DNA of 64,000 nucleotides from Parapedobacter defluvii (GTDB lineage Bacteria; Bacteroidota; Bacteroidia; Sphingobacteriales; Sphingobacteriaceae): positions 1 to 64,000 of the forward strand of contig NZ_BMIK01000013.1 in assembly GCF_014642075.1 (NCBI RefSeq), written 5' to 3'. The notes beneath the pieces were generated by a model. It saw nothing but the letters and a program-made list of their open reading frames with translations. It made no database searches and was not told where the DNA came from. The position numbers were made by a program, and so were the translations under genes. Shown piece after piece: positions 40,703-52,401 of the stretch (its first letter is position 1; every line of letters starts with the position of its first letter).

Positions 40703-40801
40703 ATCAAGCATTTTTAAATGAGTTAATCACCTTCAAAATTAAACAACCAAAGTTAAGTTAGCAAATTATAAATATAGGAAAACAGCCGATGGTAAAAACA
40801 G

Positions 40802-40827
40802 TTCGTACGTACGAAACGGCGTTTCGT
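40802..40827. promoter_or_regulatory. overlapping palindromes in the lanA-like control region
   Basis: TTCGTACGTACGAA (40802-40815) is a perfect palindrome and overlaps ACGAAACG-G-CGTTTCGT (40811-40827), a perfect 8+1+8 inverted repeat. They lie between the minus-strand gene and the precursor gene, about 85-110 bp before its ATG. The layout is that of an operator with two alternative or stacked sites. Confidence 0.55.
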
Positions 40828-40912
40828 TATATTAAATCCCGCGTTCGCAAATTAAATTTTTAAATACACTCCCGACAATGCAATTTTCCATACTAATTAA
40901 AACAAACTAATT

Positions 40913-41092
40913 ATGGAAAAGCCACTTGAAAACAACGTTGAGAATTACCTCCGAATCGAAAAGGAATTCATAGGTTCCGCGGATTACTTCCCAAGCAACT
41001 CCGCCTCATTCTGGGATTTGATAGATACCGTGAGCAGTATGACGGTCACCGGTACCACCACCTCGAACAAGACAACCACCGGTGCTTACTAA
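40913..41092 (+). CDS. putative RiPP precursor peptide, Ser/Thr-rich, no Cys
   Basis: A 59-residue peptide coded from ATG 40913 to TAA 41090. The first 40 residues look like a leader (MEKPLENNVENYLRIEKEFI, then GSADYFPSNSASFWDLIDTV): acidic, with aromatic residues. The last 19 are a core with eight Thr and three Ser: SSMTVTGTTTSNKTTTGAY. There is no Cys at all, so no lanthionine can form. It lies upstream of a LanB dehydratase, which acts on Ser/Thr through glutamylation; the expected product is a linear peptide with dehydrobutyrine and dehydroalanine. No double-Gly motif is seen, and no protease or exporter is adjacent. The role as precursor is inferred from composition and position. Confidence 0.72.
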   Translation: MEKPLENNVENYLRIEKEFIGSADYFPSNSASFWDLIDTVSSMTVTGTTTSNKTTTGAY

Positions 41093-41159
41093 AAAAGCGA
41101 AACGTTTTCAAAGGCCACTTGACACGGCGGGCTTGACGCAAGGGCGTAGCGGAGCAAAC

Positions 41160-41537
41160 GTGTTTGGTTGCATTTTGGTGGAAAATGAATATTTAGCCAT
41201 CGAGATGATGCAGGAATACATCCATACCCATGAAAATCTCCTGTTGCTGGGGACAGCTCAAACGCTTGCTGAATTGAGGCACCTGACCATTAAACTCAAG
41301 CCGGAGATCATTTTTTTGGACCTGATTATCCCCTCCGGCGGATACAGGGATTTCGATTATGGCATGTTACCGGACCATGCAACCGTTGTCGTCGTTTCGG
41401 GTATTCCGCTGGCCTTGTATGACAAAAAGCACCTGCTTAAAAATCCGATCGAATTGCCCAAACCCGTATCCCACGAAAGTTTCAACAAATGCGTGGAACG
41501 GGTCATAAAAGAAAGGAAGAGGGAAGCATGCCGATAA
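41160..41537 (+). CDS. stand-alone receiver (REC) domain protein
   Basis: About 125 residues with one response-regulator receiver fold and no output domain. It begins VFGCILVENEYLAIEMMQEY (acidic pocket formed by Glu residues instead of the usual Asp pair), with the phospho-acceptor Asp in KPEIIFLDLIIPSGGYRDFD, the switch Ser in VVVVSGIPLAL and a Lys-Pro near IELPKPVSHESF. The start is uncertain: GTG 41160 has GGAG upstream and begins the fold exactly, but GTG 41082 overlaps the precursor stop and is also in frame. Its end overlaps lanB by 10 bp. The receiver resembles LytTR-type ones, so the nearby LytS/LytTR pair may be its phospho-partner. Confidence 0.7.
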   Translation: MFGCILVENEYLAIEMMQEYIHTHENLLLLGTAQTLAELRHLTIKLKPEIIFLDLIIPSGGYRDFDYGMLPDHATVVVVSGIPLALYDKKHLLKNPIELPKPVSHESFNKCVERVIKERKREACR

Positions 41538-44500
41538 AAGGGGAATCAGGCGATTATTTTGTTGTCCGTACACCGAGACTGCCGTTAAAGGCATTGAACG
41601 GAATTCACCGGACTGACCCCTCAACGGTTTCAACTTTTATCGGGGCACTAAGAACCCTCGACCCGCAGGTCGAGGATGCGCTGTTCCTTGCCAGTAGGAT
41701 ACTTCACGATGAAATCAAACACCATCTTGACAATAACCTGCAATTTCCTGAAAAACTCGCTGTTACCGCCTATAAATACCTGCTGCGGATGTCAAGCCGG
41801 GCGACCCCTTTTGGCTTGTTCTCTTCCATAGCCCATGGCACGGTCGAGCCGGCCCAAACCGATATCCGGTTGACCGGTAACATCGCCCCGCATACCCGCA
41901 TCGACATGGAGTTGTTCGAATCCATGCGCGACACCCTCCTGTTGGACCAAGCATGTTATCCTTTTCTTACATTCTTTCCCAACAGCTCAATACATATACA
42001 CGAAGACCACTACCGCTTTTTCATCTACCGCAATCGCGACGGCAGGCAGGAATGTCATTGGATCCGCGTGGCAAAAAACCCACTGATCGAGGCTATCCTG
42101 CAACGGGCACGGACCGGCGCCACCTTCGCCGCCCTGCTCGAAACTGCCGCCGCTTTTCACATCCCCCAAGAGCGGGGAAAGGATTTCATCATCCGGTTAA
42201 CCTATGAGCAATTGCTGCACACAGACCTGGAGCCTACAATATCCGGAGATACCCAATTATCGGCCATTCAGTCCCTGCTTGGAAAAGTAACAGGGACCGG
42301 TAATGTGCCGTCAAAGTACTCCGGGTATTTGAAGCTCTGGAAGCTTTTGAGCCGGGTAAACAAGCAGAATGGCAGATTGGCAAGACTAGCTGCCCCGATG
42401 CCCGTTACCATCTTCCAGACCGATTCACTTACACACACGCATACCTGTAAACTCGGCAAAAGCCTTACGGACACGATTACACGTGAAATTGCCGAGCTGC
42501 ATCCGCTTTACCAAAATCCGATTCCCAAACACCTATGTGAATTCCGCGACCGCTTTTCTGAGCGGTATGGAGAGCAGGAAGTACCGCTGCTTGAGGCCCT
42601 TGATCTGGACCGGGGAGTCGGTTACGGCAACCCTACGGCCCAATATTTTCACGAAAACCCCTTGCTTGACGGACTCAGCTTCGCTCACGCAGCAAATGCC
42701 CGAACCGGAGATGCTTCCGAAAAAATCTTTCGTAAATACCTGTCTACCGTTCCGGAACGTGGACAGCGCATTCTGAAATTGGAACCGGAGGATTTAGCCG
42801 GTCTGCAGCAAGGCGGGGGCATCCCGATTCTTCCCGATCAGGGATGCTATGCCCTAGGAAACCTACTGACTACAAATCCCGGCAAACAACCCGATCCCCA
42901 AAACTTCCGCTTTCACCTGCTGGCCTGTGGGGGACCGTCGTCTATTCCGTTGATGACCCGGTTTGCACACCTCGATAGCCGTTTGCTGGAAAGCCTGAAA
43001 GATAGTGCCGCAGCCGAACAACAACTCTATCCCGATGAAGTTATCGCCGAAATCGTGCATATGCCGGGTAAACGGATCGGCAACATTCTGCTACGCCCGT
43101 CATTGCATCCCTATGAAATACCCGTGCTGGGACGGAGCACCTTACCCATGGAATACCAGATCGGCCTATCGGACATCCTGGTGTCGGTCACAGCCGGTGA
43201 AGTGGTATTGCGTTCGAAACGGCTTGACAAAATCATCAGGCCAAGGCTGAGCTCCGCACACAATTACCAGTCTGGCATGAACGTGTACCGTTTCCTTTGC
43301 GACGTTCAGGAACAGCATGCATACCGGCTGTTCTGGGATTGGGGCGATTCGCCCAGATACCACACATTCCTCCCCAGGGTGTGCTACAAACACCTGATCC
43401 TGCACAGGGCACAATGGAACATTCCGTCACATGTTTACAGGGAGATAAAGAATCTTGCCAAAAATCGGGCTATAGACACTGTCCGGCATCGTTACGGGAT
43501 ACCCGAGGACGTTGTTCTTGCCGATGGTGACAATGAAATTCCGCTGAAGCTTACCAACGGGCTATCGGAACGTATCTTTCTCCACGCATTGAAGGCAGGG
43601 AATGTGCGGCTTTATGAGCCATTGTATCCCGAATTTTTTTCACCGGTGGTTGATGAACGGGGAAGATCTTACCACAACGAAATCATCATTCCTTTCTTTC
43701 TGCGCGGGAATTCTTCCCTGGCCCGAAAGCGGAAGATACATTGCAATTCTTCCGTACAACGTGTTTTCCCACCAGGCAGTGAGTGGGTTTACCTGAAACT
43801 GTATTGCGGTCAAAAGGAAACTGACCGGATTATTGCCAATCACCTTTCCCCCTTTCTGGCCGGTATTGCCAAAGAAATCCCGCTGAAAAAATGGTATTTC
43901 ATCCGTTACCGGGATACGGACCATCACCTGCGGGTGCGGTTTCATCTTGAAGATGCCGGCAATGCTCCGAAACTGATGACCTTATTAAACAACAAGTTCG
44001 GAAAATTGATCGAAAGCAGAACCGTCCATAGCATCCAGTATGACACCTATATCCGGGAGGTAGAACGGTACGGAGGTAAAAGTATCGAACTCTGCGAAGC
44101 GATTTTCCATCAACACAGCGAATTTGTGCTGCGGATTGCTCCGATGTTCCTTAAACCGGAAATGGGACAAGGAAGATGGATGCTTGCGATGAAAGGGGTG
44201 GATCAGCTGCTGGACGCATTCGCAATTTCCAACCCGGGAAAACTCGATTTGGTATCCGCCTGGCGTTCGGCCATGCTTACGGAATACGCCAAACCGGACG
44301 AACTCAAACGGAAACTTGACGTCCGTTACCGTGAGGTGAAAAGTAATCTTACGGACTATATGGAAAGGGGAGGGATCTATCCACCGGTTCATGGAGACCT
44401 GCGGAGCTCGATCGTATCCTTTGCCAATGGTATAAAACTTGCCTTTGGCAAAGACTGGTCAATATCGGGCCGCAATGAAACGACCAATCTGTTGTTCAGT

Positions 44501-44674
44501 TTGTCCCATATGAACCTAAACAGAATGTTCTACAGCAACCAACGGGAGAATGAGCTCGTTGTCTATCATTTGCTTGCCAAATATTACCTGACGGTTTCCA
44601 AGAAATACGAGCGCTTTTTGGATCAGAAAACACCCTCCGTTCTTCCAGAACCGAGGGTAGCAGCTTTCCGATAA
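41528..44674 (+). CDS. LanB-type dehydratase, full length (class I lanthipeptide family)
   Basis: A 1048-residue protein with both LanB parts. The N-terminal glutamylation domain (about 1-720) has SSRATPFGLFSSIAHGTVEP at 89-108, the family hallmark; the C-terminal elimination domain (SpaB_C type, about 745-1040) has EWVYLKLYCGQKETD and WYFIRYRDTDHHLRVRF at about 788-804. In characterised LanBs the enzyme uses glutamyl-tRNA(Glu) to glutamylate Ser/Thr and then eliminates glutamate. ATG 41528 follows a GGAAGAGGG-like RBS. It overlaps the REC gene by 10 bp. No LanC cyclase, LanT or protease is in the window, and the likely precursor has no Cys, so the product may be only dehydrated. Confidence 0.9.
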   Translation: MPIKGESGDYFVVRTPRLPLKALNGIHRTDPSTVSTFIGALRTLDPQVEDALFLASRILHDEIKHHLDNNLQFPEKLAVTAYKYLLRMSSRATPFGLFSSIAHGTVEPAQTDIRLTGNIAPHTRIDMELFESMRDTLLLDQACYPFLTFFPNSSIHIHEDHYRFFIYRNRDGRQECHWIRVAKNPLIEAILQRARTGATFAALLETAAAFHIPQERGKDFIIRLTYEQLLHTDLEPTISGDTQLSAIQSLLGKVTGTGNVPSKYSGYLKLWKLLSRVNKQNGRLARLAAPMPVTIFQTDSLTHTHTCKLGKSLTDTITREIAELHPLYQNPIPKHLCEFRDRFSERYGEQEVPLLEALDLDRGVGYGNPTAQYFHENPLLDGLSFAHAANARTGDASEKIFRKYLSTVPERGQRILKLEPEDLAGLQQGGGIPILPDQGCYALGNLLTTNPGKQPDPQNFRFHLLACGGPSSIPLMTRFAHLDSRLLESLKDSAAAEQQLYPDEVIAEIVHMPGKRIGNILLRPSLHPYEIPVLGRSTLPMEYQIGLSDILVSVTAGEVVLRSKRLDKIIRPRLSSAHNYQSGMNVYRFLCDVQEQHAYRLFWDWGDSPRYHTFLPRVCYKHLILHRAQWNIPSHVYREIKNLAKNRAIDTVRHRYGIPEDVVLADGDNEIPLKLTNGLSERIFLHALKAGNVRLYEPLYPEFFSPVVDERGRSYHNEIIIPFFLRGNSSLARKRKIHCNSSVQRVFPPGSEWVYLKLYCGQKETDRIIANHLSPFLAGIAKEIPLKKWYFIRYRDTDHHLRVRFHLEDAGNAPKLMTLLNNKFGKLIESRTVHSIQYDTYIREVERYGGKSIELCEAIFHQHSEFVLRIAPMFLKPEMGQGRWMLAMKGVDQLLDAFAISNPGKLDLVSAWRSAMLTEYAKPDELKRKLDVRYREVKSNLTDYMERGGIYPPVHGDLRSSIVSFANGIKLAFGKDWSISGRNETTNLLFSLSHMNLNRMFYSNQRENELVVYHLLAKYYLTVSKKYERFLDQKTPSVLPEPRVAAFR

Positions 44675-44682
44675 GCGTCCGG

Positions 44683-45390
44683 TTACCCGATACCCAGCTT
44701 TTGGAAGACAGCTTCTTTAAACGATGATCCCAAAGGAATATTACCTATGCTTCCCTGCATGATGATCTCCCGGGGTGTCAACTTCTCAACATAATCCAGG
44801 TTGACAATGTACGACCTATGTACGCGCATGAATCTATCCGGAGGCAGCTTTTCCAGCATATTGGTCAGAGATTCCTGCACGATGTGTGTTTTATTCAGGG
44901 TTTCTATCTCGACATATACCCGGTCTGCTTTGATAAAAAATATGTCGTCATGTTTTACGATCAGGTTGCTATATCCCGATTTCACTGTGATAAAGCTTTT
45001 CGTCTCTTGAATACCGGCTTTTCCAAGCTGCAACCGTGCTTTGTCGACAGCTTTCAGGAACCTTGGGTAATCGTAGGGTTTAACCAAATAATCTGCTACA
45101 TTGTATTCGAAGCTTTCCACGGCATATTCATGGGATGCGGTCACAAAGATAAATAACGGCGGACTGGCCAGACTCTTCAGTAATTCCATCCCCGAAATCC
45201 CAGGCATCAGGATATCGGAAAAAACGAGCTGTATTCCCTTTCCCTGCCCGATGTGGTTAAAAGCGGACATGGCATCCTTGAAAACTCCCTCAAGCCTGAG
45301 AATCGGTGTTCTATGGATATGCCCTACGATGTCGGCTCTCGGCAATGGGTCATCTTCGACAACGATGCAACTAATTGTGCTTTGGTTCAT
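44683..45390 (-). CDS. LytTR-type response regulator
   Basis: A 235-residue regulator with an N-terminal receiver (CIVVEDDPLPRADIVGHIHR, phospho-Asp in LVFSDILMPGISGMELL, VTASHEYAVESFEYNVADYL and a Lys in LVKPYDYP) and a C-terminal LytTR DNA-binding domain (about 130-235: FITVKSGYSNLIVKHDDIFF, RFMRVHRSYIVNLDYVEKLT). LytTR proteins bind direct repeats. It overlaps its sensor kinase gene by 4 bp and converges with lanB, 8 bp away. Likely regulates the RiPP locus, by position. Confidence 0.9.
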   Translation of the reverse strand: MNQSTISCIVVEDDPLPRADIVGHIHRTPILRLEGVFKDAMSAFNHIGQGKGIQLVFSDILMPGISGMELLKSLASPPLFIFVTASHEYAVESFEYNVADYLVKPYDYPRFLKAVDKARLQLGKAGIQETKSFITVKSGYSNLIVKHDDIFFIKADRVYVEIETLNKTHIVQESLTNMLEKLPPDRFMRVHRSYIVNLDYVEKLTPREIIMQGSIGNIPLGSSFKEAVFQKLGIG

Positions 45391-46484
45391 TTCAGATCGA
45401 TTTTGAGTTTGACGTGGTAACTCCCGTTTTCCCTCCACGTGGTTATTTCATGTTTTTCTGGATAATAGTATTTGAGACGCTTAGTAGCGTTTTCAAGCCC
45501 CACACCACCGAAAATTCGCCCTCCGTTTTCGTCGGGTTCCGGTATAATTGCAGCGTTCAAGATTTCCATATGAAAGACATTGTTTTCCATCCAGGCCTTG
45601 ATTTGAATCCAGTTATTATCCGGGTGCACTTCCGGCCCGTGCTTGAATGCGTTTTCCACAAATGGGACTAGGATAAGCGGGGCGATTTTATAGGGCTTGT
45701 CCACGTTTTCGACATCGTAGTCTATTTTGATGGCATCACCGTATTTGAGCCGGTTCAATTGCACATAGTCTGACAGGAAAGCCGTTTCCCGGGAAAGGGC
45801 GATCCGATTACTGTCGGATTCGTATAAAATGTACCGCATCAAACCGGAGAGCTTTAAAATCATTTCGGGTGTTTCCTGGTCGAACCGCTTGGCCATGATG
45901 TAGATATTATTCAGCGTGTTGAACAGGAAATGCGGCGTGATCTGAGACTTGAGGAATTTCACTTCCAGTGAGAGGTTCGCATTTTCCAATAGCGCATTTT
46001 TGTATCCGCTTTCCATCAGTGACTTCATCAGTTTGGGCCCGATTGGCAGGTAAACCATAAAGATGAAATCGAAAACAAAAACATCCAAATTAGGCAACCT
46101 GAACATTCCCGCGATGCCATTTTCTGTCACGAACTCCAGGTAATACCGCCACCGCTCGTCCGGGTTGGGGTACAGTTGCAGACTCAATTTACAGGTAAAA
46201 TAATTTACAGTGGCCCACCAGGCATAGGCGAAGACGGTCCAAATCGGAATGATGTAGTATTTTCCTCCGAGAATCCCTTTGTTGACAAGAAAAGGTACGG
46301 TAAAGTAGAATAAGGGAAAGACAATGACCCAGTCCTTGACCGTAAAAAGCCATGTGTCTGGTCCGGCTAGCCGATTGTAGTTCAGGTAGTAGAACAGCGA
46401 GAAAAAAAACCAAAATACGATATGACAGATGATCCGGACTTTTCTGTCGTACCATTTGAACCAATTAAAGGTCAATTTTTTCAT
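45387..46484 (-). CDS. LytS/YehU-type sensor histidine kinase
   Basis: A membrane histidine kinase of 365 residues. Four or so helices fill residues 1-150 (KVRIICHIVFWFFFSLFYYL and others). The kinase core is the HisKA_7 type: FLKSQITPHFLFNTLNNIYI with the phospho-His, followed by LSGLMRYILYESDSNRIALS and ATPase motifs LVPFVENAFKHGPEVHPDNN and GRIFGGVGLENATKRLKYYY. There is no separate periplasmic sensor domain. It forms a two-component system with the LytTR regulator just downstream; the signal is unknown, but a peptide signal is plausible beside a RiPP gene. Confidence 0.92.
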   Translation of the reverse strand: MKKLTFNWFKWYDRKVRIICHIVFWFFFSLFYYLNYNRLAGPDTWLFTVKDWVIVFPLFYFTVPFLVNKGILGGKYYIIPIWTVFAYAWWATVNYFTCKLSLQLYPNPDERWRYYLEFVTENGIAGMFRLPNLDVFVFDFIFMVYLPIGPKLMKSLMESGYKNALLENANLSLEVKFLKSQITPHFLFNTLNNIYIMAKRFDQETPEMILKLSGLMRYILYESDSNRIALSRETAFLSDYVQLNRLKYGDAIKIDYDVENVDKPYKIAPLILVPFVENAFKHGPEVHPDNNWIQIKAWMENNVFHMEILNAAIIPEPDENGGRIFGGVGLENATKRLKYYYPEKHEITTWRENGSYHVKLKIDLK

Positions 46485-46768
46485 GCGATGCAAGAAATAT
46501 GAAATACAATATTAGCAAGGCACATAACCCGATCGGATTAAGTCAAATAATACGGATTTCAATTTCTCACAATTATAACAAAACAAATCAAAAAAACCAT
46601 TCTTTGGTGGGCTCGTTGTGTTGTTACAGATTAACGGAAGTTCGTAAAGTTTTCTGTGGTTGGCGGTCAGCTTACCGCAAGGTTTACCACCGGACAAGGT
46701 CGTGTCCGCCGTTGGCTACTAATTTGCCGTGTATGCTGGTAAAAACTTTGAATGATCCGATGAAATTC

Positions 46769-46782: not shown

Positions 46783-47064
46783 ATGATTGATTCAAGAAAA
46801 CAACAGATCATCAAAGAAATCACCGCGAAATTCAATCCATCGCTGGTTGGTGTGTTCGGTTCTTATGCCCGAGGGCAGCAAGGGATTCGGAGCGATCTTG
46901 ATATATTGATTGATTTCAATCACCGAGTCAACCTATTAGATCTTATTGGTCTTGAAAACGAATTATCCAAGAAACTAGGCATTAGAGTGGATTTGGTAAC
47001 TGCTAGTTCGTTGCATCAACGTTTACGACCTATTATTGAGCGAGACTTGATCCGTATTACCTAA
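46783..47064 (+). CDS. MntA-like minimal nucleotidyltransferase (antitoxin family)
   Basis: A 93-residue nucleotidyltransferase with the site GVFGSYARGQQGIRSDLDIL (GSx10DxD) and a second Asp in VDLVTASSL. In HepT/MntA systems this enzyme AMPylates and so neutralises the HEPN RNase toxin. The toxin partner is present only as a truncated copy starting at the overlapping TAATG. The motif is complete, so it may still be active. AT-rich, unlike its neighbours, which suggests recent transfer. Confidence 0.85.
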   Translation: MIDSRKQQIIKEITAKFNPSLVGVFGSYARGQQGIRSDLDILIDFNHRVNLLDLIGLENELSKKLGIRVDLVTASSLHQRLRPIIERDLIRIT

Positions 47065-47215
47065 TGGAAAAATTATCCTCCATTTATCTTCATCATATTT
47101 TGGAGTGTATTTCACGAATCCGAGCGTATACCAAAGACATCGATGAACAAGCATTTTTAAAAGATTTCCTCCTTCAGGATGCTGTAATTAGAAACTTCGA
47201 AGTACTAAAGGCCAA
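47064..47215 (+). pseudogene. hepT-like HEPN toxin gene, truncated
   Basis: ATG 47064 overlaps the MntA stop. The reading starts MEKLSSIYLHHILECISRIR and AYTKDIDEQAFLKDFLLQDA with VIRNFEVLKA, which matches the N-terminal half of HepT-type proteins. After about 47215 the match ends and the frame runs into the antisense of the DUF5675-type cassette. The HEPN catalytic R-x4-6-H motif, normally further on, is missing, so the toxin should be dead. Confidence 0.75.
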
Positions 47216-47217
47216 CT

Positions 47218-47252
47218 TAAAAAGAGGATGCCTGACCTTTTAGACATCCCCC
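47218..47252 (-). terminator. terminator of the small minus-strand cassette
   Basis: On the minus strand GGATG-TCT ... AGG-CATCC pairs and is followed by TCTTTTTAAG. Stem bases are 47227-47231 and 47246-47250. It lies at the junction with the hepT remnant. Confidence 0.6.
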
Positions 47253-50600: not shown

Positions 50601-51677
50601 TTACGTAAACGTTTCCGCTGGATCAAAAGTCGATAACGGCGGCAGGTCCGGCCGTTGGCCATCCATTGAAATAAGAAGTGACACAACGCACCAACCGTCT
50701 ACCCTTGCGTATTCCAGCAGAAATGATTCCGAAAACGTATATTCAAGACGCTGACGGAGGTTCGACAGCCCAAATCCCGTATGCTTTCGCCGGAGCGAGT
50801 TGTTGGGACGGTTGCGCGTGGTAATAAACAGGTAGGGATATCGGTAATCGACATGCAGCTCAGCCTTTTCCTTCAGGAAATCGCCATGCGCAAAAATATT
50901 TTCCACCAGCGTCAGTATTCCCATCGGCACGATGCGCGATCGTCTGAGCGGTCCGTGCATAAGGATGTCTAACCGCACTAAACCATTAAAACGCAAATCT
51001 GTGATACGAATGATCTTTTTCGTCATTTTCAGTTCCTTTTTCACAGATACCGTCTTTTTGTTCCGGGTGGCCAGGCAATAGTACAGCACATCCAGCAAGA
51101 GGTCATAAGCTTCGCCCAAACGGGAAGAGCCGGTGAGGCTTAGTTCGCGCAGCAACGCAAGGGCATTGAGCAGAAAATGTTCCGGCAAATGCATATGTGC
51201 CCACTTATGCTGGAGTACAGCCAATCGCTTTTCCAGTTCGGCTACATTGCTCAGCACCCGTTGCCGATCAACCTCCATCTTGTGCATGGTATAGTGGCGC
51301 ACACTGTAAAGCAGGCAGAGTACCAACGGAAATAAGACGGCAAACACATTGGTCACCTGAAAGACCAGCCCCCGCAACGAGCGGATGCGGATTTCCAGTG
51401 CGCCGGAATAGTGACTGACCAGTGCGATGAGCACTAACATCACCAGCCACTCGGCGCCCAAGGCGATCCATATTGTTTTAGGCCGCCAGCCAACTACCTT
51501 TCCGACCCACGGAAACAATCCATACACATTTCCATAAAAAAGCAGCGTACCCAAGGCGACTTGCAGAAGCAGGTCTGGATTGTTTAACAAACCCGCCACG
51601 AGCGACGAGCGTGTATACGTACAGTAGGCGATAACCAGCAGTACAAAACCAGGAAGATGTCGGCTAAAATTCTTCAT
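50601..51677 (-). CDS. LytS-type sensor histidine kinase
   Basis: A 358-residue membrane kinase. The membrane part (about 1-150: FVLLVIAYCTYTRSSLVAGL and others, six helices) is followed by an HisKA_7-like core in which HKWAHMHLPEHFLLNALALL replaces the usual QxxPHFLFNxLN motif. ATPase motifs MGILTLVENIFAHGDFL and TGFGLSNLRQRLEYTF are present. The pHis region is divergent, so activity is not certain. It overlaps the response regulator by 14 bp. Start chosen as MKNFSRHLPGF at 51677; longer readings would overlap the regulator more. Confidence 0.85.
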   Translation of the reverse strand: MKNFSRHLPGFVLLVIAYCTYTRSSLVAGLLNNPDLLLQVALGTLLFYGNVYGLFPWVGKVVGWRPKTIWIALGAEWLVMLVLIALVSHYSGALEIRIRSLRGLVFQVTNVFAVLFPLVLCLLYSVRHYTMHKMEVDRQRVLSNVAELEKRLAVLQHKWAHMHLPEHFLLNALALLRELSLTGSSRLGEAYDLLLDVLYYCLATRNKKTVSVKKELKMTKKIIRITDLRFNGLVRLDILMHGPLRRSRIVPMGILTLVENIFAHGDFLKEKAELHVDYRYPYLFITTRNRPNNSLRRKHTGFGLSNLRQRLEYTFSESFLLEYARVDGWCVVSLLISMDGQRPDLPPLSTFDPAETFT

Positions 51678-52401
51678 CCGGCTTATGTTTTCCAAGCATT
51701 CGGGCCTTCCAAAATGCATTGAACTGCTCGGCATAGGCCGGACCAATGACAAACGAATCGCCGTTATGCAGTGTGACCATCCCCTCACCTAGTTCACGGA
51801 TGCTTTCAACCCGGACAATAATCGATTTGTGAATGCGGATAAAGCGCCCGGTTATCCCCGGTTCCTTCAGAAAACCTTTGAGTGTGTGGTGCACCACATA
51901 TGAGCGGGCGGGTGTGTGAACGATGATGTAGTCTTTGGCCCCTTCCACGTGTGTGATATCCGGAATGGATACGGCATATTGCCTCCGTTTGGAGCCATCA
52001 TTGACGAAACGCAACATGTCTCCGTCTGACTCAGCCCTTAACGATTTGCTGAGTTTCGTAATTTGCCGTAAGAGCTGACGTTCGCGAAGGGGTTTAAGCA
52101 GAAAGGCATCGGCATCCGTATCATTGGCCTCATCCAGATGTTCGGCATGACCCGTCAGGTAAACGAAGCGCTGACACTTATCGCCCAATAGGGTCACGGC
52201 CGAAAAACCATCCGTGCCGGGCATTTCCACATCGCAAAGGATCAGTGCTACCATTTGCTGTTTGTCTACATATTCCAGTGCTCTTGCCACACCCGTAAAG
52301 ACTTGTACGGTAATGTCCGCTCGCCCCAAACCTTCCACAACCCGCTTGGAATCGGCCAAAGAAAGCGGTTCGTCGTCAATGATTATAATCTGAAAAGCCA
52401 T
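51664..52401 (-). CDS. LytTR-type response regulator
   Basis: A 245-residue regulator: receiver with IIIIDDEPLSLADSKRVVEG, phospho-Asp in ALILCDVEMPGTDGFSAVTL, YLTGHAEHLDEANDTDADAF and LLKPLRERQLL, then LytTR domain (about 140-240) with VEGAKDYIIVHTPARSYVVH and FIRIHKSIIVRVESIRELGE. It forms a two-component system with the overlapping kinase and is divergent from the secreted-peptide operon at 52.6 kb, so that operon is its likely target. A direct repeat near its own start may be the LytTR site. Confidence 0.9.
   Translation of the reverse strand: MAFQIIIIDDEPLSLADSKRVVEGLGRADITVQVFTGVARALEYVDKQQMVALILCDVEMPGTDGFSAVTLLGDKCQRFVYLTGHAEHLDEANDTDADAFLLKPLRERQLLRQITKLSKSLRAESDGDMLRFVNDGSKRRQYAVSIPDITHVEGAKDYIIVHTPARSYVVHHTLKGFLKEPGITGRFIRIHKSIIVRVESIRELGEGMVTLHNGDSFVIGPAYAEQFNAFWKARMLGKHKPDEEF

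Follow-up and report, generated by a model that had tools for sequence, protein, structure and literature searches.

A LanC-free LanB cassette with a cysteine-free precursor in Sphingobacteriaceae: a probable source of ring-free dehydrated peptides under LytS/LytTR control

What can a complete class I dehydratase (LanB) make of a peptide that contains no cysteine, if no cyclase is encoded beside it? The question is raised by a locus of Parapedobacter defluvii within the 64,000-nucleotide stretch analysed here (the window, always meant at its full length). We consider it fairly probable that the locus is a self-contained LanC-free RiPP cassette, whose peptide is dehydrated by LanB, remains ring-free and is controlled by LytS/LytTR, and that the cassette derives from LanB/LanC clusters. 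Probably many Sphingobacteriaceae make ring-free dehydrated peptides under dedicated control of their own. The features of the locus are as follows.

40799..40828, strand +: candidate LytTR-type direct repeat CAGTTCGTA-N12-CGTTTCGTT, whose two copies begin 21 bp apart, ~114 bp ahead of the precursor gene.
40913..41092, strand +: gene of the Cys-free 59-aa precursor peptide (open reading frame, homologues beside LanB, purifying selection).
40949..40972, strand +: leader box LRIEKEFI, the equivalent of LSLDKETI in Cys-containing class I precursors of Sphingobacteriaceae (p=0.007 against shuffled sequence).
41033..41089, strand +: Thr/Ser-rich, Cys-free C-terminal core SSMTVTGTTTSNKTTTGAY (translation, alignment of precursors).
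About 41160..41537, strand +: lone receiver domain that retains the phospho-acceptor Asp54 and Lys101-Pro102; its start codon is uncertain.
41528..44674, strand +: class I dehydratase LanB, full-length, 1048 aa, with glutamylation and elimination domains (Pfam, motifs); 41528 is the most likely start, and an alternative in-frame ATG lies at 41489.
44683..45438, strand -: LytTR response regulator, convergent (domain match, co-occurrence, congruent divergence).
45387..46493, strand -: LytS-type histidine kinase (PF06580), convergent, with a hydrophobic N-terminal region (domain match, comparison with paralogues, congruent divergence).

The preliminary description of this DNA presented it as a LanB-type RiPP locus with a Cys-free precursor of 59 residues, followed by a lone receiver and by a full-length LanB with both catalytic regions. 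That reading is supported by our analysis, with the reservation that the dehydration, the linear product and the role of the peptide as a signal are inferences. The peptide is as described: the frame translates as MEKPLENNVENYLRIEKEFIGSADYFPSNSASFWDLIDTVSSMTVTGTTTSNKTTTGAY, Ser/Thr account for 11 of the last 19 residues, and Cys is absent from all 59. It has no convincing match among curated families, Pfam or NCBIfam, and this together with its shortness could suggest a chance open reading frame that is not a gene. Such an explanation is contradicted by the conservation of the frame family-wide at the same place and by dN/dS of 0.02–0.24 in nine close precursor pairs, which indicates purifying selection (one further pair had no synonymous changes, and three were saturated); we believe it can be practically dismissed.

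The composition of the core is common to the family. Cys is absent from the last 25 residues in 24 of 24 aligned precursors, including the outlying G363. In 17 representative precursors the Ser/Thr fraction is 0.40 in the last 16 residues and 0.11 before them, and the Cys count is 0 in the core as against 12 in the leader. The common core pattern is hydrophobic-T-hydrophobic-T/x-T-S/T, e.g., MTVTGTTTS, MTFTTSNFI or LTMTTTMTG. The leader lacks a GG motif in the window precursor. Cys-containing lanthipeptide precursors adjoining LanB in Sphingobacteriaceae have LSLDKETI-like boxes, which correspond to the FNLD-like leader recognition box of class I, and an equivalent box is found in the Cys-free precursors (LRIEKEFI, LKLEKETL, LKIEKEII, FALDVQTI), at residues 11–14 in 15 of the 17; it is significant against shuffles (p<0.05) in 10 of the 17 and weaker in some members. 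The shared box would tie the Cys-free peptide to LanB as its substrate, which is an inference and not biochemistry.

The enzyme is complete. Lant_dehydr_N is matched over positions 2–647 of 649 (4.5e-113) and Lant_dehydr_C (PF14028) over 1–255 of 255 (4.5e-60), so both regions noticed in the preliminary description are confirmed; TIGR03891 is also matched over the full length. The closest solved relative is MadB (9G04, 5.4e-48; PMC12241602). The similarity to MadB (5e-48) and the conservation of motifs settle the assignment to LanB. Across the clade of cassette LanBs the glutamylation-domain motifs FVVRTP, YLLRMSSRATPFG and TRFAH are kept, as are the elimination-domain motifs HLRVRF, EVERYGG and SHMNLNR. 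Because both sets are conserved, both half reactions are expected, the activity itself being inferred. The window LanB is the only LanB in the genome of P. defluvii. It does not meet the definition of a PEARL, a small LanB without the elimination domain, since PF14028 is matched throughout, nor that of a split LanB of the goadsporin/thiopeptide type, being a single full-length chain.

LanB-related enzymes with different results do exist (PEARLs, split thiopeptide LanBs; PMC11117183, PMC10676384). One could imagine accordingly that only partial glutamylation takes place here, or that dehydration does occur and Dhb is then captured by small thiols or by a different protein. The presence of the elimination motifs R-x-R, E-x-E-R-Y and H-M in every full-length member speaks against such outcomes, which we regard as improbable.

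Dehydration without cyclization remains our preferred reading, and the cyclase is the next point to consider. A LanC or a Cys-rich precursor linked to this LanB, or a 59-residue frame not conserved in related loci, would have refuted the preliminary description; none of the three was observed. A LanC elsewhere in the genome, which it proposed to look for, was sought, and two LanC-like genes were found, both on a contig other than that of the cassette and neither zinc-competent. In one of the proteins Ser replaces the first zinc Cys and Cys-Gln replaces Cys-His, and the other has none of the three ligands; hence no LanC with the Cys-Cys-His zinc-ligand set is linked to the window LanB or found elsewhere in the P. 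defluvii genome. The two genes are adjacent on contig C11 (~61.9–69.8 kb; L035:9882-17775). Their neighbours are glycosyltransferase-like genes, an HlyD and a C39-type ABC transporter (named by eye from the translations), and in this respect they resemble the zinc-less LanC-like proteins reported near CAZymes in Bacteroidales (PMC10352776); they possibly belong to a different peptide pathway.

In a broader sample, 11 of the 20 cassette genomes, all 20 at least 91% complete, have no LanC-like gene at all (G068, G019, G225, G243, G015, G210, G216, G412, G369, G288 and G028), and among the LanC-free cassettes that were inspected none has a Cys-containing precursor ahead of its LanB. Most of the other Sphingobacteriaceae LanBs inspected are near lanC, usually with the WCYG and CHG ligands intact. 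These data bear on the possibility of an ordinary class I lanthipeptide, in which a distant LanC and a second, Cys-containing peptide would give rings in trans, and the Thr-rich peptide would be accessory. The two LanC-like genes on another contig agree with this possibility, as do the loci of the G088 type, where a LanC-like gene and GG-leader peptides with Cys accompany a Cys-free peptide. However, it leaves unexplained the absence of the zinc-ligand set from both LanC-like proteins and their glycosyltransferase-like surroundings, the genomes that lack any such gene, and the lack of Cys-containing precursors in LanC-free cassettes. We rejected LanC in trans as the general case on account of the zinc-less proteins of P. 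defluvii and the 11 genomes, and consider the explanation quite improbable.

A ring-free product is strongly inferred, because the core has no Cys and the genome has no zinc-competent LanC. Lanthionine within the window peptide is not possible since the peptide has no Cys. Some relatives have Cys in the leader, and a leader–core thioether is not strictly excluded for them; for the window peptide it is.

How far does the cassette extend beyond P. defluvii? In a six-frame search, several genera of the family proved to have relatives of the peptide, encoded a few hundred bases before an orthologous LanB gene. In total, Cys-free precursors lie beside orthologous LanBs at about 27 loci of Sphingobacteriaceae. 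Of 401 genomes in the order, 24 contain a match to the precursor profile, and these all belong to a single family. The matches in G115 and G363 are weak and were set aside; G363, whose LanB also falls into another clade, was not counted in the core family, and the G291 locus is truncated where its contig stops. No convincing case of the precursor outside the family was found in a class-level sample of 395 genomes, and a contig scan with a single LanB sequence as the query gave just one distant locus.

The recurrent order is precursor, receiver, LanB, then the convergent LytTR and kinase genes. The same genes also occur in G288, in G231 and as a second copy in G243; the precursors there are Cys-free as well, and have diverged too far for the profile to match. 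The exceptions are G295, which lacks the receiver, G028, in which the locus is split over two contigs, and the second copy of G015, which stops at a contig edge; in the four loci of the G088 type the precursor is a few kb further upstream. Beyond the five genes, none is broadly conserved near LanC-free cassettes; in particular, genes for immunity, export or proteolysis are not conserved there. As an aside, the LanB of G028, a genome of the same genus, is split over two contig ends (L043 on contig C3, L076 on contig C17), and a transposase-like frame (IS66-like, by eye) at the break possibly reflects an insertion in lanB.

On the LanB tree the enzymes of the cassettes group together in a single clade (26 rows, SH-aLRT 99 in a quick search) next to the LanC-linked LanBs. 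The first branch of this clade (G088, G181, G238 and G320) keeps a LanC-like protein that has Lys-Tyr in place of Cys-His, and the other cassettes have none nearby. This suggests a path of cyclase decay followed by the loss of cyclase and exporter; the direction of the loss is only inferred, because the root of the tree was set at the midpoint. The clusters of the first branch (L044, L045, L046 and L105) include a TonB-receptor-like protein, the Lys-Tyr LanC-like protein, an exporter and several small peptides, of which one is Cys-free and Thr-rich, one is of the GG type without Cys, and others of the GG type have up to two Cys. Another LanB clade (G281, G230 and G287; L128, L130 and L131) also has an adjoining convergent LytTR gene; LanC was not found nearby, and the precursor was not recognised.

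A point against a specific regulatory link is the abundance of LytS/LytTR pairs in Bacteroidota. The preliminary description proposed peptide-controlled regulation from the convergent LytS/LytTR genes, and a regulatory link is supported by their strict co-occurrence, by congruent divergence and, in many loci, by a 21-bp repeat. LytTR and kinase genes are present in every cassette with a long enough contig, and the lone receiver in nearly all; the lone receivers retain the phospho-acceptor Asp and Lys-Pro. Distances between LanBs correlate with those between kinases (r=0.92) and LytTR regulators (0.87), which could also reflect joint vertical inheritance of the locus. The window kinase scores 193–314 bits against cassette kinases of other genomes and at most 132 against paralogues in its own genome.

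Upstream of the precursor, 9-mer repeats spaced by 21 bp reach at least 7/9 identity in 9 of 15 representatives and at least 8/9 in 6 of 15; in 300 shuffles the maxima at any spacing were 7 and 4, respectively. A canonical LytTR site consists of two 9-bp direct repeats separated by 10–13 bp (PMC11347149), i.e., 19–22 bp start to start, and the spacing in the cassettes is 21 bp. The window repeat is weak, with 6/9 identity; it is not significant alone, the significance being that of the repeats at the equivalent place across the cassettes. Direct repeats ahead of the kinase gene gave no consistent 21-bp signal. When the genomes of six relatives were scanned with one repeat pattern, the precursor promoter was the sole exact match in three of them, but near-matches overall were not commoner than with a reversed control pattern; one conserved near-match precedes an operon of small membrane proteins.

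Several side observations may be recorded here. In L139, L142 and L143 a conserved 21-bp repeat (TTTGGTCG...TTTCGTCG) lies 94 bp before a two-gene operon of small membrane proteins (DUF2752-like and TM2-like, by eye), and is perhaps the target of another LytTR regulator. The window has a second kinase-like/LytTR-like pair outside the cassette (50601–52401), which the cassette kinase matches with only 24 bits. At 46783–47243, next to the kinase gene of the cassette, there is a nucleotidyltransferase (MNT-like) with a small HEPN-like partner, resembling a toxin-antitoxin pair by eye, and the segment 48381–49752 encodes proteins of 224 and 213 aa that look related and have similar Gly-rich stretches at their N-termini.

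We presume the following mechanism. LanB would bind the precursor via the leader box LRIEKEFI, activate Thr/Ser of the core with glutamyl-tRNA and eliminate glutamate to give Dhb/Dha, as the family and the conserved residues lead one to infer; dehydration has not been observed. No ring would be formed, given a Cys-free core and a genome without a zinc-competent LanC. The operon of precursor, receiver and LanB is most likely switched by LytS/LytTR through binding to the upstream 21-bp direct repeat. This control, the Glu-tRNA-dependent dehydration and the ring-free product are all inferred. What the sequences themselves show is the precursor gene, the gene order, the selection, a complete LanB and the absence of both core Cys and a zinc-competent LanC. 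The modified peptide is most likely a signal, or feeds back on LytS/LytTR, and the lone receiver may tune the phosphoryl flow; these are the weakest steps, and the peptide as the kinase ligand and the role of the receiver are speculative. The cassette is presumed to have arisen from ordinary LanB/LanC lanthipeptide clusters by the loss of the cyclase and of the core cysteines. It is tempting to propose a new RiPP signalling system, descended from clusters that lost both, in which the LytS/LytTR pair of the cassette has as its ligand the ring-free dehydrated peptide made by LanB; we advance this only tentatively, as a possibility that may well prove wrong.

Since neither an exporter nor a leader protease is linked to the cassette and the leader has no GG motif, the route of the peptide out of the cell is unexplained. 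Export in trans is possible, because C39-domain proteins (C39-type transporters) occur elsewhere in all 20 cassette genomes. The same transporters would serve a ring-free dehydrated peptide with an antimicrobial or interbacterial function, whose synthesis LytS/LytTR merely switches on another cue. Products of LanB are commonly antimicrobial, and bioactivity is possible for linear peptides with dehydroamino acids (PMC10880069); nevertheless, it is the two-component genes that are conserved in LanC-free cassettes, and not immunity, exporter or protease genes. We consider the antimicrobial function unlikely, with some room left for it.

If the prediction of a ring-free product holds, LanB alone would define a ring-free class of RiPPs, and the series from a zinc-competent LanC through a zinc-less LanC-like protein to no LanC would show how a pathway changes its product. 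With a dedicated two-component system in every complete cassette and a lone receiver in nearly all, a regulatory role of LanB products can be tested directly in environmental bacteria. We found no report in the literature of a full-length LanB as the sole modifier of a Cys-free substrate, although an earlier mention remains possible. A large LanC-anchored survey of lanthipeptides discarded open reading frames without core Cys (PMC7268733), and mining that is anchored on LanC and requires Cys would miss a whole clade in which complete LanBs have Cys-free substrates.

Among the known systems, the pinensin-type clusters are similar in having a class I LanB in Bacteroidota, but pinensins are lanthipeptides with precursors in a LanC-associated family (PMC7268733), and the cassette has neither LanC nor core Cys. 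Goadsporin and thiopeptides likewise involve LanB-type dehydration with Dha/Dhb not used for lanthionine (PMC5303826; PMC10676384); their split LanBs act after azole formation by YcaO, whereas a single full-length LanB is the sole modifying enzyme of the cassette. AgrCA, ComDE and SilAB also combine a peptide gene, a membrane histidine kinase and a LytTR regulator with paired 9-bp direct repeats; the kinase of the cassette is of the LytS type (PF06580), its peptide has a RiPP leader and a LanB, and there are no sensing data. Linaridins, e.g., cypemycin, are linear Dhb-rich peptides similar to the predicted product; they are dehydrated by unrelated enzymes and are not known to involve a LanB (PMC10880069). 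The closest comparison is with class I lanthipeptides, including those of Sphingobacteriaceae with GG leaders, which share with the cassette the full-length LanB, the Ser/Thr-rich C-terminal core and the leader box L-x-L/I-D/E-K-E-T/I-I. The cassette differs from them in lacking core Cys, LanC and a linked exporter or protease, and in having the lone receiver and the convergent LytTR/LytS genes as fixed members. We do not file it as a lanthipeptide pathway, because a zinc-ligand LanC and core Cys were both looked for and not found; as far as dehydration, itself inferred, it would work like a class I LanB pathway.
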